A stretch of DNA of 37,540 nt from a virus, in the IMG/VR virus record IMGVR_UViG_3300043313_001888, positions 1 to 37,540 of that record; one strand, written 5' to 3'. The notes below the pieces were generated by a model that saw only the letters and a program-made list of their open reading frames with translations, had not been told where the DNA came from and searched no databases. Shown piece by piece: positions 2,677 through 37,540 of the stretch. Position numbers and translations under genes: made by a program. Within the stretch, counting starts at the first letter, position 1, and each line of letters starts with the position of its first letter.

Positions 2677-2743
2677 GGCGTACCTTGTTTCCGTAACCAC
2701 CGCAGCACCGGCCACACCCCGCAGCACCGCCAGGAAGACGACG

Positions 2744-16390: not shown

Positions 16391-16566
16391 CCGTGCCTTG
16401 CCGCGCCTCGCCGCACCGAGCCCAGTCGCGCCGCGCCTGACCAAGCCAGACCGCGCCTCGCCTGCCTCACCATGCCTTGCCAAGCCCACCGATCCTGGCC
16501 ACACCTTGCCTGCCAGACCGCGCCATACCAGGCCGGAGCCGACCTAGCCGTGCCACGCCAAGACCG
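16391..16566. repeat. NNGCC/NNACC pentamer array
   Basis: About 36 consecutive near-pentamers of the form NN(G/A)CC, with a few 4- or 6-base units, for example GTGCC TTGCC GCGCC TCGCC. It follows the 16361-16390 hairpin. Translation in either direction gives only Arg/Ala/Gly- or Pro/Cys-rich low-complexity sequence without a Shine-Dalgarno, so it is treated as non-coding. A shorter relative is at 32901-32964. Confidence 0.8.
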
Positions 16567-18123: not shown

Positions 18124-18669
18124 TCAGTTCAGGCCGACCTTGTCAGCGGCGTACTCGGCCTGCGCCGGGGTGAACTTCTCACCGGCGCCGGAAGAGAGCT
18201 GCGTGATCAACGCCGCCCGCGACATGGGGCTCGTGTCGAGGTAGTTCTTCGCCGACTCGACGGCCTCCTTGTTGTAGTCGACCTTGATGTGGTTGACGGC
18301 GAACACGGCGTCCTTCCGTGAGTAGCCCTCGCCGTACTGCGAGGAGAGCTGCAGGATCAAGCCGCGCCGACTCATCCCTGACGTGGAGAGGTAGTTCTTC
18401 GCCGACTCGATCGCGTTCTTCTGTGCGGCGGTGTACTCGGGCTTCGGCTTGGACTTCGGCTTGGTTGCCGTCTCAGATCCAGAGTCTGAGTCGGAGGACG
18501 ATGACGTCGACTTGTCCTTCGACGAGCTGTCGCTTCCGCTGCCGCCACCGCTGGTGGCGATCGCGATCACGATGATCACCGCGACGACGATCGTGATGAT
18601 GCCGAGCGGCCGCTTGTAGAAGGGCTTCTTCTTGGTGGGTGCTGCGGGTGCTTCGGGCGTGCTGGACAT
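18124..18669 (-). CDS. Membrane-anchored Ltp-repeat protein, candidate superinfection exclusion
   Basis: 181 residues from ATG 18669 with AGGAGA upstream. Basic N-terminus, one TM segment at about 22-40, a Ser/Asp/Lys-rich linker at about 43-78, then two tandem copies of the Ltp-type helical repeat at about 87-129 and 135-177 (both A-x-ESAKNYL followed by MSR and LI-QLSS). In Streptococcus phage TP-J34 the lipoprotein Ltp with these repeats blocks DNA injection by other phages, and the repeat is common in actinobacterial surface proteins. No lipobox Cys is present, so the protein would be held by its TM helix with the repeats outside. Exclusion function is inferred from the family. It lies in the promoter-proximal half of an accessory operon, between a membrane coiled-coil gene and a terminator. 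Confidence 0.85.
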   Translation of the reverse strand: MSSTPEAPAAPTKKKPFYKRPLGIITIVVAVIIVIAIATSGGGSGSDSSSKDKSTSSSSDSDSGSETATKPKSKPKPEYTAAQKNAIESAKNYLSTSGMSRRGLILQLSSQYGEGYSRKDAVFAVNHIKVDYNKEAVESAKNYLDTSPMSRAALITQLSSGAGEKFTPAQAEYAADKVGLN

Positions 18670-20756: not shown

Positions 20757-20963
20757 ATGACGACCCCACCGATCGAGGAGAACGATCTGCAGGAACGGCT
20801 CAAGCCGCTGGTCACCATCAGCCAGGCCGCCGAGACGCTGAACATGGACTACCAGCGGTTCTACCGGCTGGTACGTCGCGGTGAGGTGCCGGTCTACAAG
20901 GTCGCCGGCCGCAAGATGGTGCATCGCGACGACCTGGCCAAGCTGGTCGAGTTCCCGGCCTGA
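20757..20963 (+). CDS. Excisionase-like / MerR-type HTH protein
   Basis: 68 residues, ATG 20757 behind a good AGGAGG Shine-Dalgarno. Single winged-HTH of the excisionase/HTH_17 type: LVTISQAAETLNMDYQRFYRLVRRGEVPVYKVAGRKMVHRDDLAKLVE at about residues 17-65. The pattern S-Q-A-A-x-x-L plus R-x-G-x-x-P is diagnostic. In phages such proteins act as excisionases or small regulators. No integrase is present here, so a regulatory role, probably over the divergent operon, is more likely. It is the first plus-strand gene after the divergent promoter region. Confidence 0.85.
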   Translation: MTTPPIEENDLQERLKPLVTISQAAETLNMDYQRFYRLVRRGEVPVYKVAGRKMVHRDDLAKLVEFPA

Positions 20964-20990: not shown

Positions 20991-21004
20991 GTATGTTTAA
21001 CCAC
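20991..21004 (+). promoter_or_regulatory. Copy of the 14-nt motif (variant) upstream of primase
   Basis: GTATGTTTAACCAC, two mismatches to GTT-N3-GTAACCAC, in the 207-base gap between the HTH gene and the primase gene. Confidence 0.4.
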
Positions 21005-22208: not shown

Positions 22209-24088
22209 TGGCCACTATCCGGGACAAGATCTACACAGCCGTGAGCAAGCGGTCCAAGCTCGGCACCGGACCCGACGGCAAACCATGGGTGGTGTGGGTG
22301 CCCACCGGGTTTCTCTACTGTCTGACCTACGAGCCGGACGCCAAGCTCTTCCAGGGCGTGATGGTGGGGGCCTACCGCGACGACACCGGATCCATCCCGG
22401 ATCCGCGGCACGCCGTGGAGGTCTTCAAACTGCTGGTCGCCGACGCGATGATGGAAGCCTCGCTGCCCGAGGTGACCGAGGCCGAGGTGCTGGCTCGTGG
22501 GAAGGGCGCCACTCCCGACGACATCGACCTGGACCAGGGTGAGGTGCACACCGTGCACCAGGTGCTGGCCAGGCTCGGCGGCCACGACGACCTGTTCCGC
22601 ACTGGGGTCTCGCTGGTCCGGCTGCTGCGTGACTCCGACGAGCGGCTGCTGCTGCAGCCGATGGTGCCGACCGAGCCCGCCACGCTGAGCAACTGGTGCG
22701 ACAAGCACGCGATCACCTTCTACGGCAAGGATCGACGCATCGGCGGGGTGGTACCTCAGTTCCTGCCCCCGCGTGAGGGTCGGATGGTGCTGGCTCGCGG
22801 TGAGTGGGCCGACGTCCGCAAGGTCTCCGGGATCTCGGTGATGCCGATCGTGCGCCAGGACGGGACCTTGGCCACCAAGATCGGCTACGACGAGGGCACC
22901 ACCTACGTCATCGACACCGACCCCGACCTGCGCACCCTGCCGATCACCGAGGAGCCGGACGAGGCCGAGGTTGAGCTGGCCCGGCTGACCATCGAGGAGC
23001 TGTACGACGCCTTTCCCTGGGACCCCGATCAGTTCCCGGAGGCGTCACGGGCCAACGCCATCGGGCTGCTGCTGACCACCCATCTGCGGCGCACCTTCCC
23101 ATCCATGTTGGTCCCGCTGCACGCGGTCTCGGCACACGCCCAAGGATCGGGCAAGACGCTGGTGGCCGGCGACCTGCCCGGTGATTTCGGTGGCGGGGGT
23201 CGCTCGCTGCTGACCTACGACCCGATCGAGTACCAGCTGCGGACTCGGTTGACCTCGGAGATGCAGGGCCAGGGGACCGGAGTGTTGTGCTACGACAACG
23301 TCGCGCCAGGTACCGTCTTCGACTCCCCGTTCATCGCGGCGGTGTTGACCAGCGAGACCTACGACGACCGGCTACTGGGTGGTAACGCCAAGCTGGTGGT
23401 CCAGCAGTCGCGGACGTTGAGCGTGACCGGCAACCAGCTCCAGCTCGGCCGGGACATGGCCGCGCGCTCAGTGATCTCCTGGCTCAACCCGGACACCCCG
23501 CGCCCGGAGAAGCGCAAGTTCCCGGTCCGGCTCGACGACAAGGCCAGCCGGTACCGGGAACGGCCACGGGTGGTGAGCGCGATCCTGACGCTGATCCTGG
23601 CCTGGGTCCAGGACGGTTGTCCCCGCGCGGACGCGCCTGCGGAGATGCGGCAGTTCACCCAGTGGGCCGAGCGGATGGGCGGGCTGCTGGAGTTCGCGGG
23701 GGTCAACGGGCATCTGGCCAACGCCTCGCTGCTGGTCAGCGCCGACGACACCGCGGTGCGGATGGGGGTGCTGCTGCACCTGCTGCACGACCGGTACGGC
23801 ACAGGTGACTGGACCAGTGCGTGGGCGGCGCAGGCGATCAGCGAGCGTCCGGAGCTGGACTCCGAGCTGCCGGCCTGGCTGGAGAAGGCGATCGAGCGCG
23901 ACGAGTACGGCTATCTCGCGGCGGCTCCGGAAGGGTTGACGGCGAAGTCGATGAAGGCGGTGACGAGCAAGATCGGTTACGCATGCCGAAACCATGTCGG
24001 AACCTATTACGACGGGTTGAAGATCGAGCGGGTCGGAACAGCACACACCAAGGTAACCACTTGGAAGATTTCTGAAGGGAGAGTGTGA
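22208..24088 (+). CDS. SF3-like replicative helicase / ATPase
   Basis: 626 residues, ATG 22208 overlapping the primase TGA. The N-terminal 290 residues are a DNA-binding/regulatory region. Walker A is AHAQGSGKT (GSGKT at about 313-317), Walker B-like GVLCYDNV is near 358-365, and a sensor-type LSVTGNQLQLGRDMAARSV lies near 400-420. The C-terminal part (AAAPEGLTAKSMKAVTSKIGYACRNHVGTYYDG) looks like a winged-helix segment. This is the helicase half of phage prim-pol/helicase systems, here split into two genes. It presumably unwinds the origin, which may lie immediately downstream. The exact superfamily assignment is inferred. Confidence 0.8.
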   Translation: MATIRDKIYTAVSKRSKLGTGPDGKPWVVWVPTGFLYCLTYEPDAKLFQGVMVGAYRDDTGSIPDPRHAVEVFKLLVADAMMEASLPEVTEAEVLARGKGATPDDIDLDQGEVHTVHQVLARLGGHDDLFRTGVSLVRLLRDSDERLLLQPMVPTEPATLSNWCDKHAITFYGKDRRIGGVVPQFLPPREGRMVLARGEWADVRKVSGISVMPIVRQDGTLATKIGYDEGTTYVIDTDPDLRTLPITEEPDEAEVELARLTIEELYDAFPWDPDQFPEASRANAIGLLLTTHLRRTFPSMLVPLHAVSAHAQGSGKTLVAGDLPGDFGGGGRSLLTYDPIEYQLRTRLTSEMQGQGTGVLCYDNVAPGTVFDSPFIAAVLTSETYDDRLLGGNAKLVVQQSRTLSVTGNQLQLGRDMAARSVISWLNPDTPRPEKRKFPVRLDDKASRYRERPRVVSAILTLILAWVQDGCPRADAPAEMRQFTQWAERMGGLLEFAGVNGHLANASLLVSADDTAVRMGVLLHLLHDRYGTGDWTSAWAAQAISERPELDSELPAWLEKAIERDEYGYLAAAPEGLTAKSMKAVTSKIGYACRNHVGTYYDGLKIERVGTAHTKVTTWKISEGRV

Positions 24089-26409: not shown

Positions 26410-26423
26410 GTGGTTAGAGGAAC
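26410..26423 (-). promoter_or_regulatory. Reverse copy of the 14-nt motif upstream of terminase
   Basis: On the minus strand reads GTTCCTCTAACCAC, one mismatch to GTT-N3-GTAACCAC. It lies 7 bases upstream of the TAGAGT -10 box of the small terminase gene. Confidence 0.45.
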
Positions 26424-26442: not shown

Positions 26443-26940
26443 ATGGCGTCGGCAAGCGTGGCTCGCCGCTATCGCGGCATGGACGAGCATGATCGCCTCG
26501 TCGAAGGCGAAAAGATGCTCGCGATGTACAACAAGGGTGCACGGCTCAGCGAGCTGGCCAAGGCGTTCGGCTATTCCGGCAACACCATCCGAAACCGAAT
26601 AGACCAGGCCACAGCCGCACGTATCGCCCCAACGGTGGACAAATACCGCATGATCCAGGGCGAGGCGATCGACACCCAGCTGGCGCGGGTCGAGGAGCAG
26701 CTGGAGAACGTCGACCGGTTCCTGCTGCTGGCCGTCGAGCAGAAGGACGCCGCTCTGATCGAGAAGGGTCTGGCCCAGCGACTGCATGCCATCGAGGCGC
26801 GCAACCGCGTTCTGATGATGCGCGCCAAGCTGTTCGGTCTGGACATGCCGGTCAAGGCCGAGGTGTCGGTGGTGGTGACCACCCCGATCGACAGCGCGGT
26901 GGACGCGTTGATGACGCAGCTGCAGGACACGGACGCCTGA
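26443..26940 (+). CDS. terS: Small terminase subunit
   Basis: 165 residues from ATG 26443, with a -10 box immediately upstream and no Shine-Dalgarno; an in-frame GTG at 26410 is earlier and rejected. N-terminal HTH (GARLSELAKAFGYSGNTIRNRIDQATAARI at about 33-62), then a long coiled helix (TQLARVEEQLENVDRFLLLAVEQKDAALIEKGLAQRLHAIEARNRVLMM) for oligomerisation, and a short C-terminal extension. This layout is typical for TerS rings that select phage DNA for packaging. Its stop TGA overlaps the ATG of the large subunit. Confidence 0.8.
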   Translation: MASASVARRYRGMDEHDRLVEGEKMLAMYNKGARLSELAKAFGYSGNTIRNRIDQATAARIAPTVDKYRMIQGEAIDTQLARVEEQLENVDRFLLLAVEQKDAALIEKGLAQRLHAIEARNRVLMMRAKLFGLDMPVKAEVSVVVTTPIDSAVDALMTQLQDTDA

Positions 26941-28412
26941 TGCACCCGCGGCTGCGGGCCTCGGTCGAGCAGATCCGCAAGATGCTCGTGGTGCTGGAGG
27001 CTAACGAGATCACCGACCCGGCGGTGGTGTCGGGGTTCCGCCGGCGGGTGGCCGAGGCGGACGTGCTCACGTGGGCGCTGGTCTACTGCCCGATGCACCT
27101 GACCCTGGACGACGGATCCATCTCGCTCTCCGACATCCACGCCGAGTGGGTCGAGCACGCCGACGACCGCGCTCGGCGGATCTACATCGCCCCGCGTGGC
27201 GCCGGAAAGAGTACATGGCACTATCTGATCATCCCGCTCTACCTGGCTGCCACCGGACGCCGGAAGTTCATCGCCGCGTTCTCCGACTCCGGCACGCAGG
27301 CGGAGCTGCACCTGTCCACGCTGAAGCTGGAGATGGCCCGCAACGATCGGCTCCGGCAGGACTACCCGGATCTCTGCGCGGCCGGCAAGCGACCGACCGG
27401 TGCGTCCGTCGCGGACAACCAGGCGCTGCTGTTCACCAAGAGTGGCTTCGCATTCGCTGCACGGGGCGCTGACGGCTCCTCACTGGGTATCAAGCTGGGC
27501 GACCAGCGCCCCGATCACCTGCTGCTCGACGACATCGAGCCGCACGCCTCGGCCTACTCCGCCTACCAGGCCGAGAAGCGGCTGGCCACGCTGACCGACG
27601 CGATCCTGCCGATGGGCTCGCAGACCGCGTCCTGCACGGTGGTCGGCACCACCACGATGCGCGGCTCGATCATCCACCAGGCAGTTCATCACAGCGTTGA
27701 GCCAGCCAGCTGGATCGACGAGGAGAACTTCACCGTCCACCACGCGCTGCCCTTCGATGACGCAGGCGAGAGCGTGTGGCCGGAGAGGTGGAGCACCGAG
27801 TACCTGCGCTCGATCGAGGGCACTCGGTCCTTCCGGCTGAGCTTCCTCAACGAGCCCGCCACCGTGGACGGTGAGTACTGGGTCGAGTCCGACTTCAGCT
27901 ACGGGACGTTGCCGAGTGTCAGCAAGCGGATCGTGGTGGTCGACCCGGCGGTGACCACCAACCGCACCTCGGACGAGACCGGCGTGGCGGTGATCAGCTA
28001 CTCCGCAGCGCAGCGGATGGCGTGCGTTGAGGAGGCGTTCGGGATCAAGGTCAAGGGCGAGCCGCTGCGGCAGCGGGTGCTCGGGCTGATCCAGCGCTAC
28101 CCCGACATCGCCGAGTGCTACGTCGAGCGGAACCAGGGTGGCGAGATGATGGTCGAGTCTGTCTTCCACGACATGCCGGTGCCGGTCGAGACCAAGCACA
28201 ACAGCATCAAGAAGGAGATCCGGATCGAGACGCTGCTCTCGTTCTACCGTCGCGGTGTGGTGCTGCACGCGCGCAAGCTGCCGGCGTTGGAGGACCAGCA
28301 GCGTGAGTACCCGCACGTGTTGACCGACGACGTGGTCGATGTGGTGGCGATCGGGATGGCTCGGTTGGCGGGGGTGCCGCAGCGTTCTACGTTGCGCCGA
28401 GCTGTCGCCTGA
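26940..28412 (+). CDS. terL: Large terminase subunit (ATPase-nuclease)
   Basis: 490 residues, ATG 26940 overlapping the TerS stop. Walker A APRGAGKST at about 84-91 and Walker B LLLDDIE at about 194-201 form the packaging motor. The RNase H-like nuclease is marked by VVVDPAVT near 332-340 (motif I Asp), CYVERNQGGE near 393-402 (Glu) and DDVVDVVAIG near 463-472 (Asp). This is the motor that pumps DNA through the portal and cuts the concatemer. The 3' 26 bases overlap the convergent minus-strand gene. Confidence 0.95.
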   Translation: MHPRLRASVEQIRKMLVVLEANEITDPAVVSGFRRRVAEADVLTWALVYCPMHLTLDDGSISLSDIHAEWVEHADDRARRIYIAPRGAGKSTWHYLIIPLYLAATGRRKFIAAFSDSGTQAELHLSTLKLEMARNDRLRQDYPDLCAAGKRPTGASVADNQALLFTKSGFAFAARGADGSSLGIKLGDQRPDHLLLDDIEPHASAYSAYQAEKRLATLTDAILPMGSQTASCTVVGTTTMRGSIIHQAVHHSVEPASWIDEENFTVHHALPFDDAGESVWPERWSTEYLRSIEGTRSFRLSFLNEPATVDGEYWVESDFSYGTLPSVSKRIVVVDPAVTTNRTSDETGVAVISYSAAQRMACVEEAFGIKVKGEPLRQRVLGLIQRYPDIAECYVERNQGGEMMVESVFHDMPVPVETKHNSIKKEIRIETLLSFYRRGVVLHARKLPALEDQQREYPHVLTDDVVDVVAIGMARLAGVPQRSTLRRAVA

Positions 28413-28941
28413 CCTTGTGCCAGGTGCTCAGCCGGGTGCCGTTCGGGGTGCGGCACGCCATGTCACCCATCGCGTCACACTGCGGGCACACCGCGTTCGT
28501 AGTCTGACGATCAGAGCGCCATTCCTTGTTGGCCTGTGCCTGGATGGCTTTGGCCTGCTCCCGTTCCCTCTGGCTCAGCCCGGTGCGCCAGGCGAACCGA
28601 GGGCGCACCCGCGCCGGCGGCTCCTCGGGTGGTGGTGGGCGTCTGGGCCGCACGGGTGGAGGTACTGGTGGTGAGGGTGGCTCCCATCGCTCGTCGGTGC
28701 CCTTGCTGCGCTCCTCGACCGCCCATCGGTAGCTGCCGTAGTGGGTCAGGTACCGGCGCACCTGCTGGTCGGTCATCTGGTGTTCGATGCCGACCTCGGC
28801 GAGGGTCATCCCCGAGACCCACGCCTCGGCGAGCTTGAGCGCCTTGGCCTGCTGCTCGCTGGTGATCTTCCGCAGCACGGGCAGGCGGATGCGTGGATCC
28901 CGCTCGGACTCGGCCAGGTAGTCGGGCGCCACCTTGTCCAT
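28387..28941 (-). CDS. HTH plus zinc-ribbon DNA-binding protein, antisense in the packaging cluster
   Basis: 184 residues from ATG 28941; the start is uncertain because there is no clear Shine-Dalgarno and an in-frame GTG lies 23 codons upstream. N-terminal HTH: TSEQQAKALKLAEAWVSGMTLAEVGIEHQMTDQQVRRYLTHYG at about 27-69. A proline-rich linker follows, then a C-terminal zinc-ribbon with CPQCD...C-R-T-P-N-G...W-H, the phage zinc-finger type seen in many actinophage proteins. Encoded opposite to its neighbours, between terminase and portal, and its upstream gap carries two copies of the 14-nt motif, so it may bind there. The minus frame remains open far into the portal gene, but that part is a GC-rich shadow. 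Confidence 0.75.
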   Translation of the reverse strand: MDKVAPDYLAESERDPRIRLPVLRKITSEQQAKALKLAEAWVSGMTLAEVGIEHQMTDQQVRRYLTHYGSYRWAVEERSKGTDERWEPPSPPVPPPVRPRRPPPPEEPPARVRPRFAWRTGLSQREREQAKAIQAQANKEWRSDRQTTNAVCPQCDAMGDMACRTPNGTRLSTWHKVRRQLGAT

Positions 28942-28986
28942 CTTGCGCGACGGTGGCGTTCGTGTCTTCTCCAGCGTGGGACATTT

Positions 28987-29000
28987 TGTTGGGTAACCAC
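28987..29000 (+). promoter_or_regulatory. Copy of the 14-nt motif (spacer variant)
   Basis: TTGTTGGGTAACCAC region: GTT and GTAACCAC are present with a 2-base spacer in place of 3. It lies in the gap between the antisense HTH gene and the portal gene. Confidence 0.5.
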
Positions 29001-29023
29001 ACGACCCCACACCGGCCGATCGA

Positions 29024-29037
29024 GTTACTGTAACCAC
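29024..29037 (+). promoter_or_regulatory. Copy of the 14-nt motif with divergent -10 boxes at the portal start
   Basis: GTTACTGTAACCAC ends one base before GTG 29038. The palindromic core GTTACTGTAAC holds TACTGT on the plus strand (29026-29031) and TACAGT on the minus strand (29027-29032), so it can be a divergent pair of -10 elements. The plus one is 6 bases from the start codon, implying a leaderless portal mRNA. Confidence 0.6.
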
Positions 29038-30450
29038 GTGCCGCTGCCCACCTACCTGACCCAGGCGATCGACGTCTTGGACAACGCCGCGGTCGGCTAC
29101 GACCAGGCCGAGGCGTACTACGAGGGCAACGTCGGCGAGGTGATCACCAGCCGGCGGCTGCGTCAGGTGTTCGGCCTCGGCTCCTCGGGACTCGACCGGT
29201 TCCGGATCAACTACGCCCGCACCCCGGTCGATGCGCTGCTGGAGCGGACCCAGATCCAGGGCATCACCTGTTCGGACGCCGGCGCGCTGAAGATCCTCGA
29301 CACGGTGTGGAAGAGCAACGAGCTGGGCCTCGAAGCCAAGGACATCCACCGGATGGTCTACGAGTTCGGCGACGCCTACCTGATCGGGTGGCAGTCCGAT
29401 GAGGTCGAGGGCGGTGTCGAGCTGTACGCGCACTCGCCCCAGAACGTGCGGATCTTCTACGACCCGGCTCGACCACGGCGCAAGCAGTACGGCGTGCACC
29501 GGTGGATCGAGCAGGGCAACCCCGACAACGAACTGGGCGAGGGTCTGTTCACCCGCGTGAACATCTACTGGCCCGACGGCGTCGAGCAGTGGCAGTCGCG
29601 GCACCGGATCGACGACGTGATGGGGGTGCCGGCGGCCACCACCCTGGTCAGTGACGAGCCCGACCTGGTCCCCTACGGCCCGGCCCCACTGCTGGAGAGC
29701 CCGACCCCCGGCATCATCCCGATCTTCCACTTCAGGAACGCCAGGCCCTTCGGTCGTCCCGAGCATGCGGATGCCTACGGGCCGCAAGACGCTATCACAA
29801 AGTTGCTGGTGACCATGATGGTGAGCGTGGATTTCGCTGGCTATCCGCAAAGATATGTTACTACAGACTCTGCACTGGCACCCGGCCCGCAGGCCGACGC
29901 GTTCGGTCCGCCACCTGACGACAGCATCAGCCTCGATGAGGGGCTGGACGGACTCGCCGGTGACTCCGAGATGGAGGCAGGCCCCGGTTCCACCTGGCTG
30001 CTCTCGGGCGCCAACGTGAAGGTCGGCCAGTTCGCCACCGCGCAGACCGACAACTTCCTGGCCGCGATCCACAGCTTGATCAAGCAGATGGCCAGCGTCA
30101 CCGACATCCCGGCTCACTACTTCGACCGGGCCGGCCAGATGCCGTCGGGCGAGGCGTTCCGTCGGGCCGAGGCGCCGCTGAACAGCAAGGTCGAGGACCG
30201 CGAGGCGCTGCTCGGGATCACCTGGGCCGAGACCTTCAACTGGATCCTGGACGCGAACAACACCTTCGCCGCGGACCCGATGCCGATCTGGGCGCCGACC
30301 CAGGTGTGGAACGACAAGGACTCCTGGAGCACCGCGAAGCTGGAGCTGGAGGCTGGCGTGCCGGCTGACCAGGTCTACCGCGAGCGCGGGATCTCCGAGG
30401 AGCTGATCGCCGAGTGGACCGCTAACCAGCCCGATCCGGCGTTAGAGTGA
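29038..30450 (+). CDS. Portal protein (SPP1 gp6-like)
   Basis: 470 residues, GTG 29038, leaderless start as described for the site at 29024. Typical portal elements: helical N-terminus, YGVHRWIEQ, LFTRVNIYWPDGVEQW, PIFHFRNARPFGRPEH, a central GYPQRYVTT motif near 275-283, the long stem helices (TAQTDNFLAAIHSLIKQMASVTDIPAHYFD) and the EAFRRAEAPLNSKVEDRE clip/wing segment. It forms the dodecameric DNA channel at one capsid vertex. A run of rare A/T-rich codons lies at about 29790-29880. The TGA sits within TTAGAGTGA. Confidence 0.9.
   Translation: MPLPTYLTQAIDVLDNAAVGYDQAEAYYEGNVGEVITSRRLRQVFGLGSSGLDRFRINYARTPVDALLERTQIQGITCSDAGALKILDTVWKSNELGLEAKDIHRMVYEFGDAYLIGWQSDEVEGGVELYAHSPQNVRIFYDPARPRRKQYGVHRWIEQGNPDNELGEGLFTRVNIYWPDGVEQWQSRHRIDDVMGVPAATTLVSDEPDLVPYGPAPLLESPTPGIIPIFHFRNARPFGRPEHADAYGPQDAITKLLVTMMVSVDFAGYPQRYVTTDSALAPGPQADAFGPPPDDSISLDEGLDGLAGDSEMEAGPGSTWLLSGANVKVGQFATAQTDNFLAAIHSLIKQMASVTDIPAHYFDRAGQMPSGEAFRRAEAPLNSKVEDREALLGITWAETFNWILDANNTFAADPMPIWAPTQVWNDKDSWSTAKLELEAGVPADQVYRERGISEELIAEWTANQPDPALE
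30443..30448 (+). promoter_or_regulatory. -10 box before scaffold gene
   Basis: TAGAGT overlapping the portal stop, third copy of the same hexamer in a promoter-like place. The 14-nt motif starts 12 bases further on (30455). A -35 is not clear. Confidence 0.4.
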
Positions 30451-30454
30451 CCGT

Positions 30455-30468
30455 GTTCAAGTAACCAC
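30455..30468 (+). promoter_or_regulatory. Copy of the 14-nt motif before scaffold gene
   Basis: GTTCAAGTAACCAC, perfect fit to GTT-N3-GTAACCAC, in the 56-base gap between portal and scaffold genes, 39 bases before the start codon. Confidence 0.6.
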
Positions 30469-32901: not shown

Positions 32902-32964
32902 CCACGCCATGCCAGATCACGCCCGGCCTTGCCGCGACTTGCCGCGCCTGGCCACGCCTTGCCG
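32902..32964. repeat. NNGCC pentamer array, second copy
   Basis: About 13 near-pentamer units (ACGCC ATGCC ... TTGCC GCGAC TTGCC GCGCC TGGCC ACGCC TTGCC) directly after the 32876 hairpin. Same design as the longer array at 16391. Confidence 0.75.
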
Positions 32965-33809: not shown

Positions 33810-34145
33810 ATGCCGATCTACGCCAGCAAGTTCGTCGGCGCGGGCACCGTCGCGGACCCCAAGCTCCCCGAGGCCGCGCTCGGCATGAAGACCTTCCGCA
33901 CCGCGGTGATCGGCAGCACCGCGATCAGCAACGTGCCGGTCCAGCAGCAGCTGCTGCCCGCACCCGACCCTGGTGGGCAGGCGGCCCCGAGCACGGTGGT
34001 GTACCTGGGCGAGACCCTGGACTCCCCGATGAGTGCGACCGCGGTCAAGGATCTGCGGACCAAGCACAACATCATCGCGACCGCGGGCGAGACTCCGCGG
34101 CAGATGGGTGCCCGGCTCGGCGTGCAGCTGGGGAGTGGTAACTGA
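33810..34145 (+). CDS. Unknown small protein upstream of giant surface protein
   Basis: 111 residues from ATG 33810, with a GAGGAGGAGG Shine-Dalgarno. A GTG at 33804 is an alternative. Begins MPIYASKFVGAGTVADPKLP and has VYLGETLDSPMSATAVKDLRTKHN and a C-terminal Gly/Arg-rich tail. Overlaps the ATG of the giant gene by one base, so it may be its partner, for example an attachment protein or chaperone. No family recognised. Confidence 0.65.
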   Translation: MPIYASKFVGAGTVADPKLPEAALGMKTFRTAVIGSTAISNVPVQQQLLPAPDPGGQAAPSTVVYLGETLDSPMSATAVKDLRTKHNIIATAGETPRQMGARLGVQLGSGN

Positions 34146-37100
34146 TGGTTGTCGCGTTCGTCAAGAGCCACACCCTCGTCACCGAGAAGGTGCTGGACAC
34201 CTCGATCGACCTCACCGTCGCCACCACCGTCCCGGCAGGCAACCTTATCGTCGCGGCGATCCTCTACGACAACGCAGCCACGGTCGGCAAGCCCACCATT
34301 GCGGCTGCGTCGAGCATCGCCAGGATGTCGGGCGAGACCAACAGCTGGGTGCTCCTCGGTCGCATCAACCACCCCTCGTCCACGTCGATCGGCGCGTTCG
34401 CCGGTGGTGAGCTGTGGGCGATCAAGACCACGGTCGCGTGGTCGGCGGCCAACTACGTGGCCACCCTGGACACCGCGGTCACCATGAAGGCCACCGTCTT
34501 GGCCGAGTTCTCCGGCGCGGAGGTCACCGCACGCAGCACCGCGGGTACCGCCTACTCCACCACCACGACAGCAGCCTCAGCAGCGACCACGGGCACCACT
34601 CCGGTGATCGGGGACCTGGCGCTCGGGTTCCTGTTCGGCTCGAACATTGCCGTTGCACCGGCGGGTGACACTGACACCACCGGTGGCTCCTGGTCCACTG
34701 CGATTGGTGTCGGCTCAACCGGCGGCTCCGCGGCAACCAACAACTTCGGCATCGTGCAGTACAAGGTGCTGACCGCCGCGTCGGCGCAGACCTACAACAG
34801 CTCGGCAGCGGGTGCAGCGGGCAACGGCGCGATCGTCACGGTGCTGCAGGCCACACCGACTGCCGCGATCACCCAGGCGAACGTGTATCCGTTCTACACC
34901 GAAGGCACCGAGACCGGCAGCACTGCCCTGGGCAATAGTCAGGCCATCGACCTCACCAGTGGCGACGCCAACATGGGCGTTCGGATACGCCTCCAGTCCA
35001 CTACCTCCGTCACCATCCCAGCCACTGACGACTGGCAGCTGCAGTGGGAGAAGAACGCCAGTGGCACCTGGACGGATGTCACCACCAGCAGCAGCACCGT
35101 GTCGGGGTACGCCTCTCCGAACCTGACTGACGGCGGCGCCACCACCAAACGGCTTTCCGGAGGTACCGGCACCTTCGAGGCAGGCAAGATCTCCGAGACC
35201 GGCCTGGTCTCCGACCTTGGCTGGGCTGGTCTCAATCACACCGAGGTGCTGTATGCGGTCACGATCAAGAAGGCCGACTTCACCAACTTCGACACGCTGC
35301 GGTTCCGGGTGCTTCGCAACGGTGTGACTACCACAATGACCTACAGCTTCCCTGCGGCCGCCACGATCTTCGGGGTCACACCGTTCCCGTCCATCACGAC
35401 TCTTCCGACGGACTTCACCAACTCCGCGTGGGTGGCGCACGACACGGCTCCCACGATCACAACCACCAGGATCAGCTGTCCACCAGCGGGTGCCTCCGGA
35501 GCAAGAACGGAGACGACCTGGTACGACTTCACCGGGAGGCGACTATCGGTCAGGATCGCCCAGTCCCCTACCGCGGGTACTGCGTATCTGAGCATGTACG
35601 TTCCCGGTGAAGGGACGTTGCCCGCCGGTCGGATCGGGCACAACAGCACTGCTGGCACGGTGATCTGGATTACTGCGATCACAGGCACGACCGGATCCAC
35701 CACCTGGGACCCGAGCAAGCCGTATCTGTCGATCCGGGAAGACAGCGGCACGCTCTACTACGAGCGGTCCGCGACCGGTGCGGCAGGAACCTGGGAACTC
35801 CTCGCCTCTCTAGCGAGCTACAGGCCCGTTACCGGCGTTCGAGTTGACGTGAATACCGTGTCCACCGCCAGCAGCACCCAGGCTGTCTGGTACGAGGAAG
35901 TCCTTGGCTCGTCGCCGTCTACGGGCACCACCCACTCGGCGTCCGCATCGCTGGCTGCGACCGCCACCCTCACCACAGCCGCTTCGGTCACTGCCGGCAC
36001 CCGCGCCAAGATCGACACCCTGTCCGACGACTTCTCCACCAAGGACACGACGAAGTGGACCTGGGGCGCCTCGGCCACCCAGGGCTCCGGACTGGTCAGC
36101 CTGCCGGCCAACGCGTTCGGGTTTGCTCAGTCGATCGAGTCCATCGACCGGTTCGATCTGACCAACAGCTCGATCACGATCCGGGTGCCGAGCATCCCCA
36201 CACGCAGCTCCGGCACCGGTCCCTCGCTGACGCTCTCACTGATCTCGACCGCCAACCAGGCAGCCGCCTCCGAGCAGTCCATCAACTTGCAGTCGAACAT
36301 GGCCGACCCGACCGTGGACGTCTATCCGATGATGGTCGTAGGCGGTACTCCTGACTACCCCGTCGCCACCTCCCGACTGCTGGCGACCTACCGCTGGTGG
36401 CGGATCGCACACAACGGCACCAACGTCGTGTTCACCGCCTCGGCCGACGGGGTCACCTACGACTCGATCTACAGCGTCGCCGCGTCCACGCTCACTGCTG
36501 CTGGGCACACGCTGTCCGACCTGCGGGTGGCAATCCGCTCGGTCGGTTCGGTCGGTGGCTCCACCGGTGCCTGGACCCTGGACTGGGTCAACGTTGCCGG
36601 GGTTACCCACTCGGCCACGGCCAGCCTGGCCGGCACGGCCACGCTGAGCACCACCGCTGCGGTCACCCGCAACGCCACCGCGTCTCTGGCGGTGACTGCC
36701 AGCCCCACTGCTGCAGCGACGGTGGTCACCCCGCACAACCTGTCTGCGCTGATTGAGGACTTCACGCTCACCAGCATCTGGGACGTGGATCCGCTGGCCA
36801 CCGCGACCACGACCAGCGCCACCATCCCGGCCACCAGCGCCCAGCCGACCGTGTCCACCGACACCAGCGACTGGTCCTTGGACGAGCAGCGGTTCTTCTG
36901 GCGCTGGAGCCCCCCGCCGGCGGTCTTGAGCGCCACCGCCAGCGCCGAGCTGCAGCCCGGTCCGAGCCCGTCCTCGACGAACATGCTGCGGTTCTTCTAC
37001 GACAACGGCACCCTGTTCATCCGGCACCACGTCGCCTCCACGGTGACCACGCTGGCCTCGTACACCTGGAACCCCGCCAGCCCGTACCTGGCGTTCCGCG

Positions 37101-37540
37101 ACACCGGCACCACCCAGTACTGGGAGACCTCGGCGGACGGCACGAACTGGACCACGGTTGGCTCCGCGGTCACCGGGCTGAGCATCGGTGGCGCGCAGGT
37201 CATCTTCCGCACCAACGCCTCGGGCACCTCCGGGTTCGGCAACCTGGTCATCGACAAGGTCAACACCGCGTTGCCGGCAGGCACCACCCACAGCGCTACC
37301 GCGGCCCTGGCCGTGACCGCTACCGGGTCCACCGTCGGAGCCCTGGACCTGTCCCGGCTGGCTGTCCTCGCCACCACGGCGACCACCAGCACCACCGCGG
37401 CGGTGAGCATCTCGCGGACTGCCACAGCGGTGTTCACCGCTGCCCTGACCACGACCGGTGCTACTGACCGGCCCACGACCGCTGCGCGCACGACCACCGC
37501 CACCTTGAGCACTGGCGCCGGGATCGACCGACCGGTCTCG
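34145..37540 (+). CDS. Giant chimeric virion surface protein, 5' part (continues at position 70)
   Basis: The start is ATG 34145, overlapping the TGA of the previous gene, with a GGGGAG Shine-Dalgarno upstream. The frame stays open to the window end and continues through the circular joint to 1554, giving about 1626 residues in all. Residues 1-233 resemble the two N-terminal modules of the tail protein at 8384. Three jelly-roll (concanavalin-like) modules follow at about 417-588, 625-822 and 871-1040. Each begins with a TDF/DDF/EDF motif, and modules 1 and 3 share a W(D/N)P-PYL--R pattern. Linkers between them carry a short Ala/Thr/Val repeat that expands into a long array after residue 1044. 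The composition is rich in Thr, Ala, Ser and Val and poor in Cys, as in secreted beta-structured fibres. It sits between small head genes and the head-tail adaptor, so it may be a head fibre or decoration, or an adsorption protein. Structural modules are seen; the exact location in the virion is inferred. Confidence 0.85.
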   Translation, partial: MVVAFVKSHTLVTEKVLDTSIDLTVATTVPAGNLIVAAILYDNAATVGKPTIAAASSIARMSGETNSWVLLGRINHPSSTSIGAFAGGELWAIKTTVAWSAANYVATLDTAVTMKATVLAEFSGAEVTARSTAGTAYSTTTTAASAATTGTTPVIGDLALGFLFGSNIAVAPAGDTDTTGGSWSTAIGVGSTGGSAATNNFGIVQYKVLTAASAQTYNSSAAGAAGNGAIVTVLQATPTAAITQANVYPFYTEGTETGSTALGNSQAIDLTSGDANMGVRIRLQSTTSVTIPATDDWQLQWEKNASGTWTDVTTSSSTVSGYASPNLTDGGATTKRLSGGTGTFEAGKISETGLVSDLGWAGLNHTEVLYAVTIKKADFTNFDTLRFRVLRNGVTTTMTYSFPAAATIFGVTPFPSITTLPTDFTNSAWVAHDTAPTITTTRISCPPAGASGARTETTWYDFTGRRLSVRIAQSPTAGTAYLSMYVPGEGTLPAGRIGHNSTAGTVIWITAITGTTGSTTWDPSKPYLSIREDSGTLYYERSATGAAGTWELLASLASYRPVTGVRVDVNTVSTASSTQAVWYEEVLGSSPSTGTTHSASASLAATATLTTAASVTAGTRAKIDTLSDDFSTKDTTKWTWGASATQGSGLVSLPANAFGFAQSIESIDRFDLTNSSITIRVPSIPTRSSGTGPSLTLSLISTANQAAASEQSINLQSNMADPTVDVYPMMVVGGTPDYPVATSRLLATYRWWRIAHNGTNVVFTASADGVTYDSIYSVAASTLTAAGHTLSDLRVAIRSVGSVGGSTGAWTLDWVNVAGVTHSATASLAGTATLSTTAAVTRNATASLAVTASPTAAATVVTPHNLSALIEDFTLTSIWDVDPLATATTTSATIPATSAQPTVSTDTSDWSLDEQRFFWRWSPPPAVLSATASAELQPGPSPSSTNMLRFFYDNGTLFIRHHVASTVTTLASYTWNPASPYLAFRDTGTTQYWETSADGTNWTTVGSAVTGLSIGGAQVIFRTNASGTSGFGNLVIDKVNTALPAGTTHSATAALAVTATGSTVGALDLSRLAVLATTATTSTTAAVSISRTATAVFTAALTTTGATDRPTTAARTTTATLSTGAGIDRPVS
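37472..37540. repeat. Terminal direct repeat, right copy (circular overlap)
   Basis: Exact copy of positions 1-69. Collapsing the two copies gives a closed molecule of about 37,471 bp. The joint lies within the degenerate-repeat part of a long surface-protein gene, so repeat copy number at the joint could have been miscounted by the assembler. Confidence 0.95.

Follow-up and report, generated by a model that had tools for sequence, protein, structure and literature searches.

A probable antisense regulator gene between the terminase and portal genes of an unclassified phage

How could the terminase–portal gene pair, which is among the most conserved in tailed phages, take in an antisense regulator gene and yet not cut off the head genes downstream? 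The question is raised by a 37,540-base virus record with 67% GC, the whole of which is called the window here, where a minus-strand open reading frame (ORF), P0001, separates the two genes. A sequence-only reading of the locus had described the ORF product as a DNA-binding regulator that may control the portal and head genes as well as itself, and as the best candidate to bind a 14-nt motif found in its upstream gap. By our analysis, the likeliest explanation is that the antisense gene is an accessory gene of the ordinary kind. In the form that we favour with moderate confidence, it is a lineage-specific, 'moron'-like gene for a regulator, with a divergent promoter region from which transcription of the portal gene is restarted as well.

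The phage is unclassified, and its host is probably a high-GC actinobacterium. It has no DNA-level similarity to known phages, and among named phages its terminase and portal find their best matches, at about 28–43% identity, in those of Streptomyces and Microbacterium. The genes run from an excisionase-like helix-turn-helix (HTH) gene through primase/polymerase-like genes, small genes, terS, terL, the antisense ORF and the portal gene to the scaffold, major capsid, tail tube, tape measure and tail genes, after which a leftward block includes an Ltp-type superinfection-exclusion lipoprotein gene. The sequence of this lipoprotein suggests a role in superinfection exclusion and perhaps a temperate lifestyle; the scanned genes showed no integrase, and no tRNA was found. 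The ORF at 34145–37540 leaves the right end of the record and resumes in frame at 1–1554, giving one ORF of 1649 aa. Because one frame runs through both ends, the record, although classed as linear, is apparently a full genome in circularly permuted form. This long ORF is rich in Ala, Thr and Ser and is positioned between the head and tail-tube genes; neither of its parts has a PHROG match. Tandem repeats occur in the gene gaps at 16401–16464 (25-bp unit, 2.6 copies) and 32926–32964 (10-bp unit, 3.9 copies).

Table 1. Coordinates of the features discussed
Feature	Position	Strand	Details
Antisense ORF P0001	28387-28941	-	ATG at 28941; 184 aa; predicted HTH, Pro-rich linker and CCCH zinc ribbon
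HTH_23-like (homeodomain-like) HTH, predicted	28738-28857	-	residues 29-68; 15.8 bits
CCCH zinc ribbon CPQCDAMGDMACRTPNGTRLSTWHKVR, Phage_zn_bind_8-like, predicted	28408-28488	-	PF24623, 17.4 bits, E=1.4e-4 in genome
Convergent overlap, 3' ends of terminase and antisense ORF	28387-28412	both	26 bp
Terminase large subunit (terL)	26940-28412	+	phrog_38, E=2.7e-56
Portal protein	29038-30450	+	phrog_104, E=1.1e-57; GTG start placed as in the closest relatives
Putative divergent control region, antisense gene/portal	28942-29037	both	96 bp; 58% GC vs 67%
TANNNT -10-like box TACTGT	29026-29031	+	6 nt before portal GTG; putative leaderless promoter
TANNNT -10-like box TACAGT	29027-29032	-	inside the same palindrome GTTACTGTAAC
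Motif copy GTTTCCGTAACCAC	2687-2700	+	intergenic
Motif copy GTATGTTTAACCAC	20991-21004	+	intergenic, upstream of replication genes
Motif core GTAACCAC, sole genic copy	24053-24060	+	inside 3' end of primase/polymerase-like gene
Motif copy GTTCCTCTAACCAC	26410-26423	-	intergenic, upstream of terS, reverse orientation
Variant motif copy TGTTGGGTAACCAC	28987-29000	+	core GTAACCAC exact, GTT one base closer
Exact motif GTTACTGTAACCAC	29024-29037	+	contains 5-1-5 palindrome GTTACTGTAAC
Motif copy GTTCAAGTAACCAC	30455-30468	+	intergenic, between portal and scaffold
Excisionase-family HTH protein	20757-20963	+	68 aa; adjoins motif copy at 20991
Ltp-type host-surface lipoprotein	18124-18669	-	Lipoprotein_Ltp, E=3.5e-35; PHROG superinfection exclusion, E=6e-49

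The antisense reading frame and its predicted domains

The minus-strand ORF is present where the earlier reading had placed it, overlapping the terminase 3' end, and the identities of the terminase and portal genes on either side are secure (Table 1). It was picked by a codon-model gene caller and is the sole stop-free frame of the terminase–portal gap with a positive overall codon score; ahead of the ATG the score drops below zero, and the other five frames are interrupted and lower-scoring. Even the weakest accepted gene scores slightly higher than this ORF, as do 9 of the 113 non-gene ORFs; the top scorers among the latter are antisense to genes, as are many long ORFs in this GC-rich window. 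No Shine-Dalgarno sequence was found before the ATG, and no homologue of the whole protein or of either domain was detected in phages, viral contigs, genome contigs or 296 genomes of one phylum. Such features are those of a chance open frame in GC-rich DNA, in which case the insert would be only a promoter or spacer. We regard this as unlikely, since a single frame holds both domain matches and the remaining frames are broken, and since the insert is extra DNA relative to the relatives, of a kind that carries genes elsewhere. The ORF is real in the sequence and is probably a gene. It goes beyond chance only moderately, and the two domain matches in one frame outweigh the codon score as evidence; from these we infer that it is translated. 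Weak matches in L133 and L142 were dismissed as homologues, being proline-rich low complexity, and kinship with the phage's own terS HTH was rejected, as the two gave no alignment. The single-sequence AlphaFold model of the protein was poor (pLDDT 54.8), too poor to serve as a search query.

The composition proposed earlier, an HTH plus a zinc ribbon, was borne out by matches to both, each below its curated cut-off. The HTH_23 match (E=0.032 in Pfam; E=5.3e-4 within its own genome) does not reach the cut-off of 24.6 bits; its only other matches in the genome are the two genuine HTH genes, terS and the excisionase-like gene. The PF24623 match likewise stays below its cut-off of 24 bits. The zinc-ligand pattern C-x2-C-x7-C with a later H is present (CPQC-x7-C-x11-H), and its C-x2-C-x7-C spacing equals that of an above-cut-off Phage_zn_bind_8 member in L143. 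In a sample of 100 genomes from the phylum to which the relative-bearing actinobacterial genome belongs, only one had a significant Phage_zn_bind_8 match at a threshold of E=1e-4. The two matches are weak but independent, and they occur in order in the same frame. Judged from its sequence, the antisense protein is probably a DNA-binding regulator, and as such would bind DNA. This is the best-supported reading of the locus, together with a control region of its own next to the portal gene; control of the portal gene and of itself would be a further step, which the protein may or may not take.

An extra segment next to the portal gene

We then compared the locus with the closest relatives, L054 and L055, which share the order terS–terL–portal–scaffold–capsid at 36–81% identity (terminase and portal 57–60%, capsid 76–81%). 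Terminase and portal are 10 bp apart in both relatives and 625 bp apart in the window. More widely, the terL–portal gap is at least 250 bp in 23 of 94 related junctions, where it holds mostly forward genes, and shorter than 250 bp in the other 71. Antisense cargo is found at the junction in three other lineages (L077, L119/L120 and L127), and that of L127 includes a significant HTH_3 regulator (E=3.9e-8). On account of these wide gaps and antisense genes, the terminase–portal boundary is a recurrent accessory site, and by sequence comparison an antisense regulator has arisen there more than once. In L127 (6187–8128), a distantly related contig, four antisense ORFs, two of them HTH-like, lie between terminase and portal.

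Extra DNA could also have reached this place through a selfish element, for instance a homing endonuclease or what is left of a transposon. The same conserved gene block has been targeted in L054 (3574–4108), where an HNH_3 endonuclease gene interrupts the 3' end of the portal gene and the portal tail resumes beyond it, as judged from the intact L055. In the window, searches of Pfam, PHROGs and NCBIfam gave the insert neither a nuclease nor a transposase match, and no repeat above 8 bp flanks it; we consider a selfish origin highly improbable.

In the accessory-gene reading, the gene would have been inserted at a boundary that repeatedly acquires foreign genes, and its product would be a small DNA-binding regulator in which a flexible proline-rich linker joins the HTH to the CCCH zinc ribbon. 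The 96-bp gap that precedes the gene would work for both strands. Leftwards it would drive the regulator gene; rightwards it would supply a new, probably leaderless portal promoter, replacing the read-through and Shine-Dalgarno sequence of the relatives. The head genes downstream would then not be cut off, because the insert seems to bring a portal start site with it.

Several features of the gap bear on this proposal. L054 and L055 carry an AGGAGG Shine-Dalgarno sequence before the portal ATG, and the portal gene in the window lacks one. The GTG start is confirmed by the alignment of the portal starts with those of the relatives (MPLP/MPTP), and the sequence before it reads TACTGT-AACCAC-GTG. 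Among this genome's genes, the portal gene alone has a TANNNT box 5–8 nt before its start. The overlapping -10 boxes for both directions that had been reported earlier do exist, in the form of the palindrome GTTACTGTAAC, though neither a -35 partner nor a sigma-70-type promoter was found with them. Leaderless promoters are established in actinobacteria. They have also been predicted for Cluster O phages (PMC4351075), and by analogy the portal promoter may be leaderless and the gap a promoter. A structured RNA in the gap was rejected (z=-1.68, no Rfam match).

A dispersed motif and its candidate binders

We also investigated the motif that recurs in this gap. TAACCAC is the most enriched intergenic 7-mer of the genome: six of its seven copies lie in the 5.0% of sequence outside genes, where 0.12 would be expected, and its enrichment score was matched by no 7-mer in 1000 dinucleotide shuffles of the gaps (0/1000). 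The motif is non-random. Five copies, all intergenic, have GTT 2–4 bases before TAACCAC. The intergenic copies occur at rightward gene gaps only, preceding position 2744, the replication genes, terS (in reverse), the portal gene (twice) and the scaffold gene, and the remaining one is near the end of a polymerase-like gene. Six of the seven are oriented with transcription, a bias that is not significant (one-sided p about 0.06). As for the two 14-nt copies previously noted in the gap, the one at 29024 is exact, while that at 28987 keeps the exact core and has two mismatches to GTT-N3-GTAACCAC. Four exact matches to the motif plus start codon in other viral contigs were set aside as AT-rich and unrelated. 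Reading GTAACC as an ECF-sigma -35 element was likewise rejected, as the copies inspected have no common -10 at a fixed downstream spacing.

We tentatively suggest that the antisense protein might bind GTT-N3-GTAACCAC and so repress or auto-regulate these units. The claim that it is the best candidate did not hold clearly: the phage also encodes the excisionase-family HTH protein and several small genes, and five motif places lie away from the antisense gene. About as likely is another binder, whether the excisionase-family protein (the main rival candidate), another phage gene or a host factor, or else a role of the motif as a promoter element. In either case the antisense gene would adjoin two copies merely because its gap holds the portal promoter. 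This possibility, which we rate a little short of even, agrees with the presence of copies in rightward gene gaps where there is no antisense gene. Set against it are the two copies in the antisense gene's own gap and the relatives, admittedly short contigs, in which the gene is missing and the window's motif places are empty. L054 has no copy at all; the only one in L055 falls between the scaffold and capsid genes, within a hairpin-like sequence, and matches none of the motif places of the window. In these two short contigs the co-occurrence fits a link between protein and motif. The alternative has to do with the motif alone and can be true together with the accessory-gene reading.

Resemblance to known phage systems

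Like moron and other accessory genes, the antisense gene is an extra gene between genes that are adjacent in relatives, in opposite orientation and apparently with its own control region. Unlike them, its insert has no detectable terminator, and its GC content hardly differs from that of its neighbours (0.69 vs 0.67). We call it 'moron-like' rather than a 'moron' because a terminator of its own was not found. The antisense HTH_3 gene of L127 shares the site, the orientation and the character of a DNA-binding regulator. Its HTH family is different and it has no detectable sequence similarity to the gene in the window; for these reasons the two are probably independent acquisitions.

In Cluster O mycobacteriophages, the putative DNA-binding gene gp53 of Corndog runs leftward within a structural operon that is read rightward, and its promoter, PL2, is predicted to be leaderless; these genomes carry more than 30 copies of dispersed 17-bp repeats (PMC4351075). 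The window has the same kind of gene in the same kind of operon, as well as dispersed repeats. It differs in that the leaderless-type start belongs to the rightward portal gene and not to the antisense gene, and its motif is distinct and far less numerous (7 copies vs more than 30). In a database search, as opposed to a direct sequence comparison, gp53 did not match the antisense protein.

The L5 repressor of Cluster A, a protein of 183 aa, recognises 13-mers that are asymmetric and located in promoters and in short gaps between genes (PMC9283540), and its stoperators are mostly oriented in the direction of transcription. A comparable scheme for the window would have the 184-aa protein act as a monomer, its two DNA-binding domains on the asymmetric gap motif, silencing lytic genes in the L5 manner. 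The near-equal length, the two predicted domains and the dispersed intergenic sites all recall L5, and the lean of these sites towards the direction of transcription may do so too. We nevertheless consider the scheme doubtful. There are only 7 sites vs more than 20 in L5, one of them reversed; the second domain is a zinc ribbon; no similarity to known repressors was seen in Pfam, PHROGs, NCBIfam or phage tblastn; the scanned genes include no integrase; and the motif could serve some other protein. The analogy is suggestive, while site number, homology and orientation depart from the definition of an L5-type system or do not prove it. Less probable still is a new, independently evolved form of stoperator-like silencing, in which a monomeric HTH and zinc-ribbon protein would act on an asymmetric 14-bp site in the few gene gaps of the phage, its antisense gene being switched off inside the head operon by late terminase transcription. 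Should binding to the dispersed motif prove true, the protein would represent a new sequence-specific DNA-binding module and, next to the L5 type, a second and unrelated way of silencing phage genes across the genome.
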